Source: Chitinispirillia bacterium (GTDB lineage Bacteria; Fibrobacterota; Chitinivibrionia; Chitinivibrionales; Chitinispirillaceae). Taken from it: DNA of 38,668 nt. Shown piece by piece: positions 30,220 to 38,001 of this stretch; the stretch's first letter is position 1; each line of letters begins with the position of its first letter. The DNA is taken from the NCBI GenBank assembly GCA_009786575.1, contig WQRV01000007.1, forward strand, positions 1 to 38,668, in the 5' to 3' direction. The notes under the pieces are model-generated. The model saw only the letters and a program-made list of their open reading frames with translations, was not told where the DNA came from and did not search any database. The position numbers and the translations under genes were made by a program.

Positions 30220-31539
30220 ATGAGAAACAGGATTGCCGTAGCCGTCCTCACCGCCGCCCTGCTGGCCCTCGCCGGCTGCGCCCCCACCATCCGCATGCAG
30301 GTAGAGCGCCCGCCCAACTGGAACACGTCGGGCATCAAGCGCATAGCCGTCATGCCCTTCGAGCACGACCGCTCCCGCGACCAGGAGCACATAGCCCGCT
30401 TCCTCACGGCAAGCGCGACCACAGCCGTCACCCAGACCGGGCAGTTCACCCTGGTCTCCGACAGCGAAATACAGCGGCTGCAGTATAGGCGAGAAAGCAT
30501 AGAGAACCACGTAGACGCCCTCTTCTCAGGCAAAATACTCGACATCCAGTACCGCGACAGCTCCTACATCACCCAGGTCTACGACCCCGATACCAAACAG
30601 ACGTACGAGACCACCGCCTACGACCGGGAGGTGACGCTCACCGTGACCTACTCCCTCGAGCGGGCGCGCGACGGGAGCGTTGTGGGCACCGCGACCAGAA
30701 CCGCCCGCGCCGCCGATACCCAGAAAGACTACAACTACCTCAAGGCCGTCCCGCAGCTCCTCCAGCAGTGCCGCGTGCTGGCCGGCCTCCCGCGCGACCT
30801 CGCGCCGTACACAGTCGTCGAAACGCGCACGCTCATGACCGAAAAGACAAAAGACAAGGCCCTAAAGGAGAAAATGAAAAACGCGGCAGCCCACGTAAGC
30901 GGGCAAAACTACAAAACCGCGCTCAACTCCTACATGGCAATCTACGGCGAGTACGGCACCTTCGCCGCAATCTACAACGCAAGCATAATGCAGGAAGCCC
31001 TCGGCGACACCCGCGCCGCGATAGACCTCATGAGCCAGGCCTCGACCGAGACCGGGAACCCGCAGGCCAGAAACGAACTGGCCCGCCTCACCAAACGCTT
31101 GCAGGAACAGGAAACGGTAGACACCGACTACAAGGAAACCGTCAGGCAGATCGACAGGGCGATTGCGCACGCGTCAGGCGAAGCCATGAAAATCCTCCCG
31201 CCGGGCGCGAGGGTCTGGATCGTCAACAACGAAAAAAGCGAACGCGCCCTCGCAAGTTCGGTAGCCGACGGCGTAACGTCCGCGCTAATTAAGAAAAGCG
31301 TAATAATCGTAGACCGCGAAAACTCCGAACTCATTGAACGCGAGTTTTTGCAGCAAATGTCGGGCGGCGTAAGCGACACCGACATCCTCAGCGCCGGCAA
31401 CCAGGCCGGCGCCAACATAATAATAATAATAGCCATCACCGGTACCGGCAGCATGAGGCGGTTACAGATGAGAATATTAGACGTGGAAAAAGGCGTCCCG
31501 ATACTGCAAAGCGACGCCGGGGGGAGCTGGGATTTGTAG
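30220..31539 (+). CDS. CsgG/LpoB-like lipoprotein
   Basis: The 439-residue lipoprotein has lipobox LALAGC (Cys20). An N-terminal alpha/beta domain begins IKRIAVMPFEHDRSRDQEH, the typical CsgG/LpoB/TolB-N type opening (a conserved 'RIAVLPF' strand), with SGKILDIQYRDSS later. The middle (about 215-310) is helical and TPR-like (YKTALNSYMAIYGEYGTFAAIYNASIM broken by short turns; AIDLMSQAS). The C-terminal domain repeats the CsgG-like pattern (KSVIIVDRENSELIEREFLQQ, AGANIIIIIAITGTG, LQMRILDVEKG). A duplicated CsgG-like fold flanking a TPR segment is the best reading. Possible roles are in surface secretion or cell-wall synthesis control. It starts 158 nt from divergent ksgA. Confidence 0.8.
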   Translation: MRNRIAVAVLTAALLALAGCAPTIRMQVERPPNWNTSGIKRIAVMPFEHDRSRDQEHIARFLTASATTAVTQTGQFTLVSDSEIQRLQYRRESIENHVDALFSGKILDIQYRDSSYITQVYDPDTKQTYETTAYDREVTLTVTYSLERARDGSVVGTATRTARAADTQKDYNYLKAVPQLLQQCRVLAGLPRDLAPYTVVETRTLMTEKTKDKALKEKMKNAAAHVSGQNYKTALNSYMAIYGEYGTFAAIYNASIMQEALGDTRAAIDLMSQASTETGNPQARNELARLTKRLQEQETVDTDYKETVRQIDRAIAHASGEAMKILPPGARVWIVNNEKSERALASSVADGVTSALIKKSVIIVDRENSELIEREFLQQMSGGVSDTDILSAGNQAGANIIIIIAITGTGSMRRLQMRILDVEKGVPILQSDAGGSWDL

Positions 31540-31712
31540 GGAGATGGGTTTGAATCATAAAACCCACCTGCGGAGTAATCAATAGTTGCATTGCAAGTTT
31601 TATTTATAAAATAAAATTTATACATAGAACTGTCTGGCAGAAAGTATATTTTTAAGGAAAGAGGTAATTGGTTACTGTAACACGTGCAATAAACAATACA
31701 CGTGGAGGGATT

Positions 31713-33206
31713 ATGTTAGAATATGTGGTTAGCCGAACCGATGCATTTATATCTTCAAAACCGAAAGCGCACCGAAAGTCTTTTGGCCAATTTTTTACGT
31801 CTGCGGCAACGGCTCGTTTTATGGCGGGGCTATTCACCATTCCGGCGAAAAATACTCTAAAATTACTTGACCCGGGTGCGGGGTCAGGCATACTTTCAGC
31901 CGCAGTGATTGAAATGGTTGGACAGCAATATCCCCATGTAGAAAAAATAGAACTGACTTGTTATGAAACGAACCCGGATGTTCTTCCGTTGCTGGAAGCA
32001 AACATTGAATATATAAATGATCGGTCAAAAATAAAAATAGCGGCGACAATTGTTAAGGATGATTACCTGCTGTCTCAATCAAATGATTTTTCCGGAACAC
32101 TTATGGCATCGCCAATTTCAGCGAAATATGATTTGATAATCGGCAACCCGCCGTATTTCAAACTTGCAAAAGGGGCACCGGAGGCTGTTTCCATGCCCGA
32201 AGTCTGTCATGGTGCGCCGAATATCTATTTTTTATTTGCGGCAATGAGCCTTTTTAATTTGCGCGATGGCGGTGAAATGGTGTATATAATTCCCCGCTCA
32301 TGGACATCCGGCGCGTATTTTTCCCATTTCCGAAACTATCTTCTGGGGAATGGCCGGTTAGCAGGTCTTCATATATTCACAAGCCGCAAAAAAGTTTTTG
32401 ACAAAGAAGATGTTTTGCAGGAAACAATAATTATGAACATACGGAAGACAAAAGTAACGCCGCCTGCCGTGAGGATTACGTCATCAGCGGATTCCGGCAA
32501 CTTTGCTGACATAACGGAGCTATTGGTACCATACGATACTGTTGTATCAGGCACAGAACGATATGTTCACCTCGTCACCTCGCTGGATGATGTTAATGTG
32601 CTTAATAAGGTTAACGGCTTCGAAAAATCACTGCCGTCTATGGGCATGAAGATGAAGACAGGGTTGACAGTAGATTTTCGGAATCGCGGCCTTCTTCGTA
32701 ATACATCTGGAGACCATACTGTACCGTTGTTCTATTCACAGCATATTCGGGATGGACGTGTAGTTTTCCCTATAGGAAAAGAAAATGAATATATATCAGA
32801 CGAACTTAGCAGTATGGTACAACTCAACCGAAATTACCTTTTTGTTAAACGGTTTACTGCAAAGGAAGAGCGGCGGCGTTTGCAGTGTGCTATTTATCTT
32901 GCGGACCGCTATCCAAACTATAAGAAAATCAGTACGCAGAACAAAATTAATTTTGTTGACACCACAGACGGTTCGTGTATGAGCGAAAAACTCGTTTACG
33001 GTCTTTATGTGGTTTTTAACTCAACGCTGTATGATATGTATTACCGCATTCTTAACGGCTCAACACAGGTCAACGCAACGGAAATGAACTCAATACCCGT
33101 TCCGGATCGTACCACCTTGGAAAATTTAGGGGTAAAACTAATGAAGTGCGGACGCTATACTACGGCAGACTGTGATGACTTCTTGAAAGAAGCCATATAT
33201 GTCTAA
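31713..33206 (+). CDS. DNA N6-adenine methyltransferase of a BsuBI/PstI-type system
   Basis: The 497-residue enzyme shows SAM motif I as LLDPGAGSG (residues 51-59), an upstream GQFFTS motif X-like box, and catalytic motif IV NPPY (145-148), the gamma-class order. Fellow type II enzymes methylate the adenine within a palindrome; the adjacent nuclease points to CTGCAG. The C-terminal half (about 300-490) is the target-recognition part. An ATG at 31713 with GGAGG seven bases upstream is preferred over an earlier frame start. Its stop overlaps the endonuclease start by 8 nt. Codon use is AT-rich compared with the genes before 31.5 kb, a sign of transfer. Confidence 0.9.
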   Translation: MLEYVVSRTDAFISSKPKAHRKSFGQFFTSAATARFMAGLFTIPAKNTLKLLDPGAGSGILSAAVIEMVGQQYPHVEKIELTCYETNPDVLPLLEANIEYINDRSKIKIAATIVKDDYLLSQSNDFSGTLMASPISAKYDLIIGNPPYFKLAKGAPEAVSMPEVCHGAPNIYFLFAAMSLFNLRDGGEMVYIIPRSWTSGAYFSHFRNYLLGNGRLAGLHIFTSRKKVFDKEDVLQETIIMNIRKTKVTPPAVRITSSADSGNFADITELLVPYDTVVSGTERYVHLVTSLDDVNVLNKVNGFEKSLPSMGMKMKTGLTVDFRNRGLLRNTSGDHTVPLFYSQHIRDGRVVFPIGKENEYISDELSSMVQLNRNYLFVKRFTAKEERRRLQCAIYLADRYPNYKKISTQNKINFVDTTDGSCMSEKLVYGLYVVFNSTLYDMYYRILNGSTQVNATEMNSIPVPDRTTLENLGVKLMKCGRYTTADCDDFLKEAIYV

Positions 33207-34116
33207 AAAAGATCAGGCGCGGAAGATACTCGCATTACTTAATATGCCAACAGCTCAACAAAGTGATATTTGCTGTTACGCCTTGTTGGCCATGGCTGCA
33301 ATTAAAAAGTCAGCAAAATGGTCTGATGCAACAAATGAGTGGATTCGTATTCACGATATTATACAGTTTACTAAAACTGCATACGGTATTGCTTATGCGG
33401 AAAACAGCCGGGAGACTTTTCGGAAACAAGCAATGCACCACTTCAGAAATGCCGCTATTATAGAGGACAACGGCCAGGCAACAAATTCTCCCAATTATCG
33501 TTATAGGATAACAGACGAATTTTTATCTCTATTGAGAACCTTTGGAAATAGTGAATGGACAACAATGCTAAAAATGTTCGGTGAAACCCACCAATCGCTT
33601 GTTGAGCTGTATGCCTCAAAAAAAGAAATGACAAAAATGCCGGTGTGCATTAACGGAGAAGAGTTAATGTTTTCTACCGGTAAGCACAATGAACTGCAAA
33701 AAGCAATTATAGAAGAGTTCGCACCGCGCTTCGCGCCATACTCTGCATGTTTGTATGTCGGTGATACTGCGGAAAAAAGCCTCTACAAGAACTCTGAGGT
33801 ATTACAACGCCTTGGCTTTTCAATTACACTTCACGACAAAATGCCGGATATTGTCCTTTATCGCCAGGAAAAAGAATGGCTCTATTTCATAGAAGCAGTT
33901 ACCAGCGTGGGGGCAATTGACGCTAAGCGGATTATCGAAATTGAGGCAATGACAAAACAGGTCAAAGCGGGAAAAATATATGTAACAGCTTTCCTTGACT
34001 TTAAAACATTTAAAACTTTTTCAGAATCATTGGCGTGGGAAACAGAAGTATGGATAGCAGATATTCCAAACCACATGATTCATATGAACGGGGATAAGTT
34101 TATGGGGCCGCGTTAA
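33199..34116 (+). CDS. BsuBI/PstI family type II restriction endonuclease
   Basis: The 305-residue nuclease has the family organisation: an N-terminal helical, winged-helix-like domain (about 1-130, with the DIIQFTKTAYGIAYAENSRE stretch) and a C-terminal PD-(D/E)XK nuclease fold. Family phrases are GKHNELQKAIIEEF, ACLYVGDTAEK, the PDIVLY strand with Asp217, EKEWLYFIEAVTSVGAID (Glu232) and IYVTAFLDF. Characterised members (BsuBI, PstI) cut CTGCAG. The gene is coupled to its methyltransferase. I count ten CTGCAG sites in this window, so there is no sign of site avoidance and acquisition may be recent. Confidence 0.92.
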   Translation: MSKKDQARKILALLNMPTAQQSDICCYALLAMAAIKKSAKWSDATNEWIRIHDIIQFTKTAYGIAYAENSRETFRKQAMHHFRNAAIIEDNGQATNSPNYRYRITDEFLSLLRTFGNSEWTTMLKMFGETHQSLVELYASKKEMTKMPVCINGEELMFSTGKHNELQKAIIEEFAPRFAPYSACLYVGDTAEKSLYKNSEVLQRLGFSITLHDKMPDIVLYRQEKEWLYFIEAVTSVGAIDAKRIIEIEAMTKQVKAGKIYVTAFLDFKTFKTFSESLAWETEVWIADIPNHMIHMNGDKFMGPR

Positions 34117-34327
34117 GAGATATTTTGTAGATTTTTAGTATTGACTCGGTGGAATGCTGCAAACGGCGTATAATATAAATCGTGTAACAATAATACGGTA
34201 CGGCTTTACGGTCAAGGATACCGGCGAGGCGGTGTGTGTGTGTGGCCGAGTTGATGGAGAGGTATCGGGGGTTGGTGGGGGAGAAAAATAATGGTTTTTA
34301 CTTTTTTAAAAAAAGGAGCGAAATAAT

Positions 34328-35320
34328 ATGAATGACACTCAAAAAGATTGTCCTATTTGTGGTTGTAGTTCAACATGTGAACGATATTTTAATGATGGTT
34401 TCCGTTCGTGCGTGATTTATAACTGCGATACCTGTGGGAAATATGCCTGTTACGCCCCAGATGAGAGAATGAAAGTTGATAAAAATAAACTTGCACCATA
34501 TTTATTTTATAATAGTTGGATAATCAATGATCAGAATAAATATTTCTTTGTCGGTACCAAAGAACAATTTAACGTCGCACAAAAAGAACTTACCAATGCT
34601 ATCTTATTAACTAACGAAGAAGTCGATATATGGTACCCACAAACATTTAGCGAAAAAATAGATAAAATCCTTTTAGGATTATCGGAGGTGCTTGATGATT
34701 ATGGAGAGTATATTAAATTACCACGGGAGAAAGCGTTAAGCGCTTTTTTCATAAAAAGATATTGCCCTGATGATTCAAATACACCAAAAGAAGATACGAC
34801 GACATCACTTAGATTTATTTATAAATATATGTTAGATTATGGTCTCATTGAAAAATTTGCGGACGGGTATGAAACCATAAGAATATTGCCCGATGGCTTC
34901 AAAAGAATTGATGAATTTCAGAAAAACAAATCAAATAGCAAAAATGTGTTTGTTGCAATGTCGTTTGATGAAAATATGAAAAATATACGGAGTGCTATTC
35001 GCGAAACAATCACAAAAACAGGTTACATTCCAAGGATCATGGATGAGATTGAACACAACAATCAGATTGTTCCAGAAATGCTACATGAGATAAGACAAAG
35101 TAAATTTATTATTGCAGAATTCACAAATCACAATAATGGAGCATATTATGAAGCCGGTTACGCCGCTGGTTTAGGAAAAGAGGTAATACATGTTTGCCAA
35201 AAAGGTATTTTTGGAGAAAAAGGCCATTTTGATATAAAACAAAAAGCTACTATTTTGTGGGAAACGGAAGTGGACCTTGTAGAAAAACTATGTAAGCGTA
35301 TTGAAGCGACTATTGTATAG
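34328..35320 (+). CDS. Zinc-ribbon / winged-helix / TIR-like (deoxyribosyltransferase-fold) protein
   Basis: The 330-residue protein has an N-terminal cysteine cluster (C8, C11, C13, C17, C28, C33, C36, C41) able to bind zinc. A helical region follows, then a winged-helix-like piece (about 160-198, ending ILPDGFKRIDEF). The C-terminal domain (about 205-328) begins NVFVAMSF and contains IEHNNQIVPEMLHEIRQSKFI cut by turns, IIAEFTNHNNGAYYEAGYAAGLG and VIHVCQK. This fold is shared by TIR domains and nucleoside 2-deoxyribosyltransferases; Glu275 in YYEAGYA matches the catalytic Glu. It probably acts on NAD or a nucleotide in response to a bound signal. AAAAGGAG precedes the ATG. It converges with thsA (52-nt gap). 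Not a characterised defence family as far as I know. Confidence 0.82.
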   Translation: MNDTQKDCPICGCSSTCERYFNDGFRSCVIYNCDTCGKYACYAPDERMKVDKNKLAPYLFYNSWIINDQNKYFFVGTKEQFNVAQKELTNAILLTNEEVDIWYPQTFSEKIDKILLGLSEVLDDYGEYIKLPREKALSAFFIKRYCPDDSNTPKEDTTTSLRFIYKYMLDYGLIEKFADGYETIRILPDGFKRIDEFQKNKSNSKNVFVAMSFDENMKNIRSAIRETITKTGYIPRIMDEIEHNNQIVPEMLHEIRQSKFIIAEFTNHNNGAYYEAGYAAGLGKEVIHVCQKGIFGEKGHFDIKQKATILWETEVDLVEKLCKRIEATIV

Positions 35321-35372
35321 ATAGCCTTACACACTTGATAATGAGTTGGTGATTTAAAAGTAGGTCTTATAT

Positions 35373-36299
35373 TTAGACCTCATATCCAATTTTTTCATTA
35401 CTATTAGAGAATGAGGTATATTTGCACAGATATTCAATAGATTTTTTAAGTTCTTCCATATCAATATTATGTTTTTCCACATCATTTGGACTTAATACTA
35501 TTGTCAACTTATCAGAAAATGTAGATTCCGAGCATGCAGCAATAAATGATTTAACAATTTCTCTAATAATTTCTTCTCTCGTTTGCGGTAATCTTGCGAA
35601 TCCGGTTCCAAGAACAGGAATTAACAAATTTTCTTTAAGTCCCTTTTTACTTATAAAAAACCAAATTTCTGCGAGTGTCTTTTTTAAATCATCATAGGTT
35701 CCTTTTGCCACTCCGTGTTCATTAATATTTGCAATAGCAACTATATATACAGTTCTGTTTGCAGGATTAAGTTTTACAATAGTACCTATTGGATATTTTT
35801 TGTTTTTTCCTATCCTATCTCCATGTAAGGTCTCAAATTGAATGCCTTGTAGGCCAAGATAGATTTCTTTATCAAGCTGTATTTCATTTCCATAATAAAA
35901 TTTCTTAGTAAATTGTCCCTGTATACTTTTCTCAGAAATTAGATTTTGTGAAAGATGGGTATCGAATGTCGTATTTGTACCTATTATTAAAGAACCGTTT
36001 TGCTTAAATAAATCTCCGATGACTATTTCAATTGAAGTATCTCGATTATCTAGCTTACATTCGAATGTTAATTTCGGCCATTTATATATTATTGCAATCA
36101 GCAATCCAATAATTAATAATAAAAACCAATGTTCTTGAGTGAATAGTATGAATGGTGTAGCTTCTCCAAACATAAAAGCAGAGAATTCAATAATGAGCCA
36201 AAATGAACCGAGCACACTTAAAAATACAGGTGCAAGGTTTTTAATAATTATTTTGACTTTAAAACAATGTCGTAATTGGAAAATAATAAGGTTAAACAT
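35373..36299 (-). CDS. thsA: Type II Thoeris effector ThsA (two TM helices + macro domain)
   Basis: The 308-residue protein has two transmembrane helices (about 22-44 and 57-72) and then a macro-like domain (DUF6430 type, about 86-290): EIVIGDLFKQNGSLIIGTN, RTVYIVAIANINEHG, and LLIPVLGTGFARLPQTREEI. This arrangement is that of ThsA in type II Thoeris, where the macro domain senses an ADP-ribose-type signal made by ThsB and the membrane part causes cell death. The gene follows thsB with a TGATG overlap, so translation is coupled; a GTG one codon earlier is an alternative start. AT-rich like its neighbours. It converges with the TIR-like gene at 34328. Confidence 0.85.
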   Translation of the reverse strand: MFNLIIFQLRHCFKVKIIIKNLAPVFLSVLGSFWLIIEFSAFMFGEATPFILFTQEHWFLLLIIGLLIAIIYKWPKLTFECKLDNRDTSIEIVIGDLFKQNGSLIIGTNTTFDTHLSQNLISEKSIQGQFTKKFYYGNEIQLDKEIYLGLQGIQFETLHGDRIGKNKKYPIGTIVKLNPANRTVYIVAIANINEHGVAKGTYDDLKKTLAEIWFFISKKGLKENLLIPVLGTGFARLPQTREEIIREIVKSFIAACSESTFSDKLTIVLSPNDVEKHNIDMEELKKSIEYLCKYTSFSNSNEKIGYEV

Positions 36300-36802
36300 C
36301 ACAAGCCCAACCCACGGTAAACATTGTCATTAAAATAATATGGCCCTGTTTTACCTTGATTCGTATAACTTTCGTGTGAGTTAAGCCAGTTCTCTAACGC
36401 GTATTGCATGATTTTTGCGTTAAAACTGATATGTACTACCAATTTATCACTAAGTATCGGTGGGCATCGATCTGTGTCTATTGCCCTTTTACCATTTAAG
36501 TTTACAGCAACTATTGGAAGATTCCGTGCCAGAGCTTGTTCTATTTCCCATCTAACAAATTTATAGAGGTATCGAGTTCTTTCACCTACCAACAACACAA
36601 ATATTTTTGTGCTTCTAAGGCGCTCCATTAGCTGATTTTTTATCGATTGTTCCATGCTTGTGTCTCTAGCATAATTTAAGTCATGGGCATCATAAAAATT
36701 GAATGACATATCATCATTTTGTTTCCAAGCCTGCATTAATCTGTAATAATGTATATCAGTATCACCGTCAAAGGAAACAAAAATTTTGTTTTTGTAACTC
36801 AT
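36299..36802 (-). CDS. thsB: Type II Thoeris TIR-domain protein ThsB
   Basis: The 167-residue protein is a single TIR-like domain of the MTH538/ThsB kind: KIFVSFDGDTDIHYYRLMQAW (split by turns), the helix of MEQSIKNQLMERLRSTKIFV, LVGERTRYLYKFVRWEIEQAL with the likely catalytic Glu86 and PIVAVNLNG. ThsB proteins recognise infection and use NAD to make a signal molecule; for type II systems this has been reported to be histidine-ADP-ribose. The ATG at 36802 has GGAGG eight bases upstream. It is first in the thsB-thsA operon. The final segment (YTNQGKTGPYYFNDNVYRGLGL) is a short tail of unknown role. Confidence 0.87.
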   Translation of the reverse strand: MSYKNKIFVSFDGDTDIHYYRLMQAWKQNDDMSFNFYDAHDLNYARDTSMEQSIKNQLMERLRSTKIFVLLVGERTRYLYKFVRWEIEQALARNLPIVAVNLNGKRAIDTDRCPPILSDKLVVHISFNAKIMQYALENWLNSHESYTNQGKTGPYYFNDNVYRGLGL

Positions 36803-37387
36803 AATAACAACCTCCAAATATAATAATATAGAAATAAAGGTATTAAAATTATTAATACCTACCTTTTTTCACAACATATAATACGAATATAGATTATGTT
36901 TATGGGAAAAGCAAATTTTTTTTGAAAAATATCTCGAATAACATTTTACAAACATATAGCGTACGAATGGCGCAGGTTTGCTACGACAGATGTCCATTAC
37001 GTAATTGTAGGCCCGTTCCATCAAATGCGGTTCTATTGTGGGGTATCGACGTTCCGGCAGAGGAAGGTGGGGCGAGCTGCGGTGTCTCAGCCACAATGCG
37101 CGAAGGCGGTATCAATGGAGGGTACGACCGGCATGCAAGTGATTATAAAGCAATGAGTTACGGCAATATCGCGCTTACAGGTAAAACAAAAACAGGTTCC
37201 CCTTGATTTTTTTACGGATTTATATTATATTTATACTGTAGAATGATTTACACGTACCGATCCAAGGGACGTATTATGAAAACGGTTCCGCCCAAAAAAT
37301 AAATATGGAAAGGGTATTTGTTTGCACAGAGCAACATTGTGGAAGAAGATTGAATTAATGTTTCACTAAACAAAGGAGGTACGCGCA
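36803..37387. other. Gene-free AT-rich gap with repeat copy A
   Basis: About 585 nt separate thsB (-) from the antitoxin gene (+). Upstream of thsB the sequence is very AT-rich and must hold its promoter. The middle contains copy A of the direct repeat (37015-37068). Open frames on both strands here (for example 36922-37206 plus, 36869-37096 minus) lack homology I can recognise and look spurious. The last 200 nt precede the antitoxin gene and hold its promoter; no clear boxes stand out. Confidence 0.5.
37015..37068. repeat. Direct repeat flanking the toxin-antitoxin pair, copy A
   Basis: GTTCCATCA..TGCGGTTCTATTG and TATCGA.GTTCCGGCAGAG are shared with 38055-38106 at about 46 of 54 positions. 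Copy A has two extra bases. On the minus strand copy B reads as an open frame including NIDTSIEPHLMELE, while the two extra bases break that frame in copy A. The two are probably fragments of one gene. Confidence 0.75.
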
Positions 37388-37600
37388 ATGAAAGTGGCAT
37401 CGGCTGATTTTATAAAGAGTCCTGCACTTTATTTGGGACGGGTTGGTACCGAGCCGGTGACTATCACGGAAGAGGGGCGTGAGGTTGCCGTTTTGACCAA
37501 GCCGCGCGGTACGCCGATTACGGACAGTCTGTTAGGTTTGCTCAAAGGCGAGGATATAGAGAGCGTTGATGCTATTAAGGATATGAGGCTGGGGGTATGA
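37388..37600 (+). CDS. Phd/YefM-type antitoxin
   Basis: The 70-residue protein fits the Phd/YefM antitoxin family: an N-terminal DNA-binding part (VASADFIKSPALYLGRVGTEPVTITEEGREVAVLTKP, broken by short turns) and a C-terminal toxin-binding tail. It would repress its own operon and neutralise the downstream PIN toxin. An AAAGGAGGT site seven bases upstream gives strong translation, as expected for an antitoxin. Its stop overlaps the toxin start (ATGA). Confidence 0.85.
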   Translation: MKVASADFIKSPALYLGRVGTEPVTITEEGREVAVLTKPRGTPITDSLLGLLKGEDIESVDAIKDMRLGV

Positions 37601-38001
37601 AAACTGTTTTTGTAGATACCAATGTTATCTTGGATGTTCTGTTGCAGAGAGGTGCTTTTTGGCAAGATGCTATGAAAGTATTTACGCTTGCGGAGCTTGG
37701 GGAGTTTCGCGCCTGTGTTTCGGCGTCGAGTATAACGGATATTTTTTATGTGGCAAAGAAAAAGCTAACAACGCCTGTAGCGCGGGCCGCGATAGATAAG
37801 TTACTTTATCTGTTTGAGGTGGTAAGCGTTGATATTAATGATTTGCGCAGTGCGTTGGCGCTTCCAATTGACGATATGGAAGACGCGTTGCAGGTATGGT
37901 GTGCACAAAAGGTCAAGGCAGATGCGTTGATTACCCGTGATGTTGGCGATTTCCAAGACATTGGTATTGCTGTGATAACTCCGGCGGACTATCAGTCATA
38001 A
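37597..38001 (+). CDS. PIN-domain toxin (VapC family)
   Basis: The 134-residue PIN nuclease begins MKTVFVDTNVILDVLL with Asp7 in the metal site. Other expected acidic positions are in the SSITDIFYVAKKK region, in PIDDMEDALQ and in ALITRDVGDF. Members cleave RNA, often tRNA or rRNA. It overlaps the antitoxin gene by 4 nt. The pairing of a PIN toxin with a Phd-type rather than AbrB-type antitoxin is a known variant. No promoter of its own is seen. Confidence 0.88.
   Translation: MKTVFVDTNVILDVLLQRGAFWQDAMKVFTLAELGEFRACVSASSITDIFYVAKKKLTTPVARAAIDKLLYLFEVVSVDINDLRSALALPIDDMEDALQVWCAQKVKADALITRDVGDFQDIGIAVITPADYQS

Follow-up and report, generated by a model that had tools for sequence, protein, structure and literature searches.

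The gene at positions 34328–35320 of the window (the whole stretch of 38,668 nucleotides analyzed here, contig C7 of a 2.9-Mb draft genome) most likely encodes an abortive-infection effector associated with restriction-modification (RM) and predicted to act on NAD+, a reading held with moderate confidence. It is based on the embedding of relatives in RM operons, the modular exchange with a TIR domain, the chemistry of the predicted pocket, the patchy distribution, and matches to a PADLOC TIR effector model; the computations made here yielded the fold, the pattern of residues, the repeated insertion into RM operons, the patchiness, and a paralog joining the sensor to TIR. The single protein would form a second line behind restriction, in which the ribbon/winged-helix half may respond to nucleic acid that is invading, cut, or abnormal, or to failure of the RM partner, and would then release or oligomerize the C-terminal NDT/TIR-like domain. 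Judging from the pocket residues and the TIR swap, this domain would hydrolyze NAD+ via Glu275, and the depletion of NAD+ would halt the phage along with the cell. The open reading frame (ORF) proposed in the initial annotation was confirmed, with 330 aa and an AAGGAG 9 nt before the ATG; since the gene has at least 554 relatives, obtained from one genome scan, the ORF is no product of chance. The features of the locus are as follows.

34328–35320, plus strand: the gene, encoding a 330-aa ribbon / winged-helix / NDT-TIR-like protein (ORF; 63-row family alignment; AlphaFold2 pLDDT 91.3)
34313–34318, plus strand: Shine-Dalgarno-like AAGGAG, 9 nt 5' of the ATG (seen in the sequence)
34328–34456, plus strand: zinc-ribbon-like N-terminus, residues 1–43, with C8/C11/C33/C36 (Cys conservation; beta ribbon in the AlphaFold2 model)
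34637–34936, plus strand: helical / putative winged-helix part, residues 104–203 (Foldseek)
34937–35317, plus strand: C-terminal NDT/TIR-like predicted catalytic domain, residues 204–330 (PF05014, DUF4062; Foldseek BcmB, DNPH1, RPP1 TIR)
34949–34951, plus strand: Phe208, at the NDT Tyr position (invariant, 68/68; aligned to T. brucei NDT 2a0k)
35102–35104, plus strand: Lys259, at the DNPH1 general-acid Asp position (HMMER alignment to Rcl/DNPH1; Lys/Arg in 52/68)
35150–35152, plus strand: Glu275, predicted catalytic Glu (aligned to the catalytic Glu of Rcl/DNPH1; 68/68)
35225–35233, plus strand: His300-Phe301-Asp302 (HFD), invariant in 68/68
31668–33206, plus strand: Eco57I-class adenine methyltransferase of the adjoining RM system (PF07669 1.5e-15; PADLOC MTase_II 7e-110)
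33199–34116, plus strand: BsuBI/PstI-type restriction endonuclease, 211 bp 5' of the gene (PF06616 3.7e-59, PF17728 8.6e-40)
35373–36302, minus strand: ThsA, TM-macro Thoeris effector and convergent neighbor, judged no functional partner of the gene (PF20016 9.3e-51)
36299–36817, minus strand: ThsB, Thoeris TIR-like sensor (PF08937 2e-19; PADLOC ThsB 4e-78)
37597–38001: PIN_3-domain protein, possible toxin of a VapBC-like pair

The AlphaFold2 model, built on 63 relatives with a mean pLDDT of 91.3, begins with a beta-rich ribbon, continues through an alpha/beta linker into a helical/winged-helix part, and ends in a C-terminus that is Rossmann-like. The Cys-rich, sensor-like N-terminus of the initial annotation was borne out as a four-Cys ribbon, in which all 63 relatives keep C8, whereas C11 and C33 are each kept by 61 of the 63 and C36 by 52. 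The sensor part modeled alone reached a pLDDT of 92; because its Foldseek matches to the pNOB8 centromere-binding protein, MarR, and MukF are weak (probability up to 0.99, E about 0.05), the winged helix annotated earlier is plausible but not proven in residues 104–203 of the model.

The C-terminal domain has PF05014 as its best Pfam match (E 3e-6, 1.1 bits below the curated cut-off), present in 51 of the 63 members, while DUF4062 is matched at E 3e-4 with 21.5 bits, below its curated cut-off of 24.7, and by only 4/63 members at E<=0.001. The closest solved folds in Foldseek are the CMP N-glycosidase BcmB (E 1.9e-4) and DNPH1 (about 1e-3), with a probability of 1.00, and MilB is also among the top PDB folds; the plant TIR RPP1 and SPARTA rank after BcmB and DNPH1, and the TIR likeness is at the fold level only. 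From this ranking, the modeled C-terminal fold is NDT/DNPH1-like with TIR as a cousin, so that the TIR/deoxyribosyltransferase fold originally annotated proved closer to the NDT/DNPH1 branch than to classical TIR. Membership of the classical TIR family was rejected, as the TIR Pfam models PF01582 and PF13676 had no match in the window protein up to E 1. The PADLOC TIR effector model PDLC00733 is matched by the C-terminal half of the family in 45/63 members, in the window protein over residues 245–320 only, and no nucleotide-cyclase partner as in PDLC00733 was identified in the window.

The C-terminal-domain profile aligns ungapped to rat Rcl/DNPH1 (HMMER, E 1.3e-4), and in this alignment E275, already proposed as the putative catalytic Glu, coincides with the catalytic Glu of Rcl/DNPH1. 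Structure prediction likewise gave an NDT/DNPH1 fold with that Glu retained. E275 stands within a YEAG motif in 68/68 sequences, an invariance partly built in by the genome-scan pattern, which required YEAG; Phe208 and HFD 300–302 lie outside the search pattern. Phe208 coincides with the NDT Tyr in the alignment to T. brucei NDT (2a0k), and Lys259 takes the place of D80, the general acid of DNPH1. The active-site Tyr and general-acid Asp of the 2'-deoxy-specific NDT/DNPH1 enzymes are thus replaced by Phe in 68/68 sequences and by Lys/Arg in 52/68, respectively. By its sequence, the family is a divergent NDT/DNPH1 branch and no canonical NDT. It shares the fold and the YEAG catalytic Glu with the NDT/DNPH1/MilB superfamily (PF05014), whereas it differs from it in the invariant Phe and the predominant Lys/Arg, and adds the ribbon/winged-helix sensor and the conserved HFD.

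The nicotinamide of NAD+ is a good leaving group, requiring no acid, and a pocket that keeps the Glu and has lost the Tyr and the general acid would therefore fit NAD+ cleavage. The NAD or nucleotide chemistry suggested at the outset is supported as a prediction, while the sanitation of methylated deoxynucleotides is disfavored by the Phe/Lys pocket. MilB, a ribose user, carries Phe at the position of DNPH1 Y24, and F17Y moves MilB toward deoxyribose (PMC10603095). At the same position, Tyr is found in NDT, DNPH1, and some ThsB, whereas the residue in NADase TIR domains is usually Phe or Ala (PMC11204291).

In one locus, the N-terminal module is joined to a different domain. P0001 (L073:6373-7917), a protein of 514 aa encoded directly 5' of a family member, carries the family's N-terminal module (E 8e-34) followed by TIR_2 (5e-8, above the cut-off). 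At this locus, the ribbon/winged-helix module is thus predicted to be a sensor able to drive a TIR effector, and the NDT-like half is by analogy probably an effector likewise. No fusion of the sensor module other than to TIR was found in the 50 relatives' genomes or in 391 genomes belonging to one class.

Among solved folds, those most similar to the domain belong to nucleotide N-glycosidases rather than to NADases, which speaks against the NAD+-effector reading and for a domain like MilB, BcmB, or DNPH1, which would attack ribonucleotides or modified phage nucleotides, or clear abnormal ones, rather than act on NAD+. Such a domain agrees with BcmB, DNPH1, and MilB being the top PDB folds and with PF05014 as the top Pfam match. 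It is nonetheless unlikely, as the Asp with which DNPH1 protonates the neutral base is mostly Lys/Arg here, the invariant Phe speaks against 2'-deoxy substrates, and one paralog has TIR in place of the NDT-like domain.

The gene was correctly placed by the initial annotation between a restriction system and Thoeris and convergent with thsA, with a BsuBI/PstI-type RM system upstream and a TM-macro Thoeris downstream. A survey of gene neighborhoods, suggested there as a check, found the relatives not mostly in housekeeping contexts and RM recurrent among their neighbors. In type III operons, the order Mod-gene-Res was found at three loci (L027, L029, and L039), where the gene starts 1-2 bp after Mod and the Res start lies between 22 bp 5' and 30 bp 3' of the gene end; at four others (L021, L023, L030, and L033), the gene lies between Mod and Res together with extra genes. 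It sits in the order HsdS-gene-HsdR at L068, 3' of HsdS at L032, and 3' of HsdR at L028. It overlaps the gene for an MmeI-like enzyme by 1 bp at L011, with Mrr_cat then downstream, and lies 3' of AlwI at L031, of IceA and a methylase at L019, and of an Mrr enzyme at L049.

Against the genome-wide density in the 50 relatives' whole genomes, 11 PF01555 methylase matches were observed in family loci versus 0.55 expected, 10 of them within 3 kb, while the enrichment of PF02384 was weaker (4 observed versus 0.48 expected; 50 genomes). The tree of 63 members requires at least 12 switches in RM linkage, which argues that no single inherited operon is involved. The recurrent partner is restriction-modification, not Thoeris. 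With phmmer, a detectable RM gene lay at most three genes away in 17 of the 81 sampled loci, about a fifth, a lower bound and a descriptive tally only, the queries having been drawn partly from the neighbors themselves; this count, and the few loci adjoining housekeeping genes (L063 and L089), speak against a backup for RM. Other neighbors include TIR (L025), SEFIR (L007), Schlafen AlbA_2 (L015), KAP NTPase (L067), and TPR-S (L010). The neighborhoods of the relatives support the earlier view of an uncharacterised defense-associated gene, although that reading had missed RM as the recurrent partner and the ribbon/winged-helix module with a TIR effector.

Several accessory genes were seen beside family members. 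An Abi_C (abortive infection C-terminus) gene (L030:4633-5460) separates the family member from Res in one type III operon, and DUF2971 genes adjoin the family member at L021 (type III operon) and L038. SNF2 helicase and DUF4391 genes (L027:1379-5293) lie 5' of a type III operon, with related genes at four other type III loci. The TPR-S proteins near family members at L010:6504-7778 and L065:5224-6447 have an N-terminal part that weakly matches the NDT-like domain.

A gene lying within RM operons of all types, with a winged helix and a ribbon, might also encode a DNA-binding regulator of the adjoining restriction genes whose C-terminal domain binds a ligand and is non-catalytic, and the ribbon of the restriction-alleviation protein Lar is matched by four relatives. 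This is improbable, since the catalytic Glu and HFD are invariant, the sensor half also occurs fused to TIR, the RM types adjoining the gene are unrelated and their promoters would differ, and RM is often absent.

The predicted NAD+ effector can be compared with several known systems. A 2026 report described DUF4062 as a TIR-like NADase conferring abortive defense, Swarozyc (PMC13174449). The family resembles it in a weak sequence match, a TIR/NDT-like domain with an auxiliary sensor, the Glu, the patchy distribution, and the link to defense. The auxiliary domain of Swarozyc is C-terminal, whereas the family has an N-terminal ribbon/wHTH and is embedded in RM operons; Swarozyc is further defined by NADase activity and a portal trigger, while the family is known here from sequence and model.

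Retron-Eco1, as cited in PMC12548924, has an NDT-type effector that forms NAD+-hydrolysing filaments. In such effectors, too, a helix-turn-helix part accompanies an NDT-like domain in a defense setting, whereas the family has a Zn ribbon, and no reverse transcriptase was present among the gene's annotated neighbors in the window. The domain order of the Retron-Eco1 effector is the reverse of the family's.

PrrC and the RM-linked HEPN toxins are encoded by toxin genes in RM operons and act as a second line if restriction is blocked (PMC3710099). A recurrent location within RM operons was found for the family as well. The toxicity of PrrC-like proteins is curbed by the RM complex and freed when RM is blocked, and the family is likened to them by operon position; in contrast to the anticodon RNase and ABC ATPase of PrrC, it has a predicted NADase or N-glycosidase and a ribbon/wHTH sensor. 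The family is nearest in predicted mode of action to Swarozyc/DUF4062, Retron-Eco1, and RM-linked PrrC/HEPN, and by the tests made is a member of none of these protein families. A direct description of an NDT gene within RM operons was not found in the open-access papers searched.

RM systems are the commonest bacterial defense, and to our knowledge few RM backups comparable to PrrC are understood in detail. More tentatively, and with the balance somewhat against it, the family may represent an undescribed class of RM-embedded suicide modules, in which a sensor that detects cut DNA or a failure of restriction would be combined with an interchangeable NDT-like NADase or TIR as a common backup in type I, II, III, and IIG systems. 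If true, a portable NAD+-depleting backup in all main RM types would explain the response of cells once cutting is overcome by anti-restriction or by modified phage DNA. E275, F208, and K259 offer a simple three-residue test, and the NDT/TIR swap a natural handle on the sensor's target.

The family is rare, mobile, and uncharacterised, and widespread yet patchy. The 80 relatives kept of the at least 554 span many phyla, with Bacillota, Fibrobacterota, Spirochaetota, Pseudomonadota, and Chloroflexota among them. Within the phylum of the window's genome, which takes in Fibrimonadaceae and from which loci L002 and L011 also come, the family is present in 6/168 genomes and in 0/7 congeners; it was found in 2/391 genomes of one class. 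Relatives of the whole protein or part of it occur on four plasmids and on 37 IMG/VR viral contigs. A phage origin is unsupported by annotated phage records, which had no match to the protein, though the 37 IMG/VR contigs hold relatives. In an empty-site comparison on the short contigs of congeners, a search next to the conserved lipoprotein gene did not recover the genes that flank the window locus.

The ThsA macro domain was absent from all 50 relatives' genomes, while the same search found it in the window's own genome as a positive control; among the 168 phylum genomes, ThsA occurs in five others and the family in five others, the two sets being disjoint. The proposal of the initial annotation that the protein feeds ThsA, as an accessory enzyme making or modifying a ligand for its macro domain, was thus rejected as very improbable: the adjacency, the common low GC, and the NDT-like active site of the TM-macro-specific ThsB subfamily (PMC11204291) favor it, whereas these distributions, the convergence of the gene and thsA, the ThsB already present in the local Thoeris, and the Phe of the protein versus the Tyr of that ThsB subfamily all speak against it.

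The GC content is 33% in the gene (GC3 27%), 30-36% in Thoeris, 41-43% in the RM genes, and 58-62% in the flanks. The gene and Thoeris, both AT-rich, may have arrived together, as low GC is common to both, and the local pairing of the gene with the RM system may be an accident, given the 211-bp gap to the endonuclease gene and a GC closer to that of Thoeris. The region 31500-38000 is a mosaic in which GC steps from about 60% in the flank to 42% (RM), 31% (gene and Thoeris), 45% (PIN), and 55%, and these steps suggest that the parts of the island were acquired separately.
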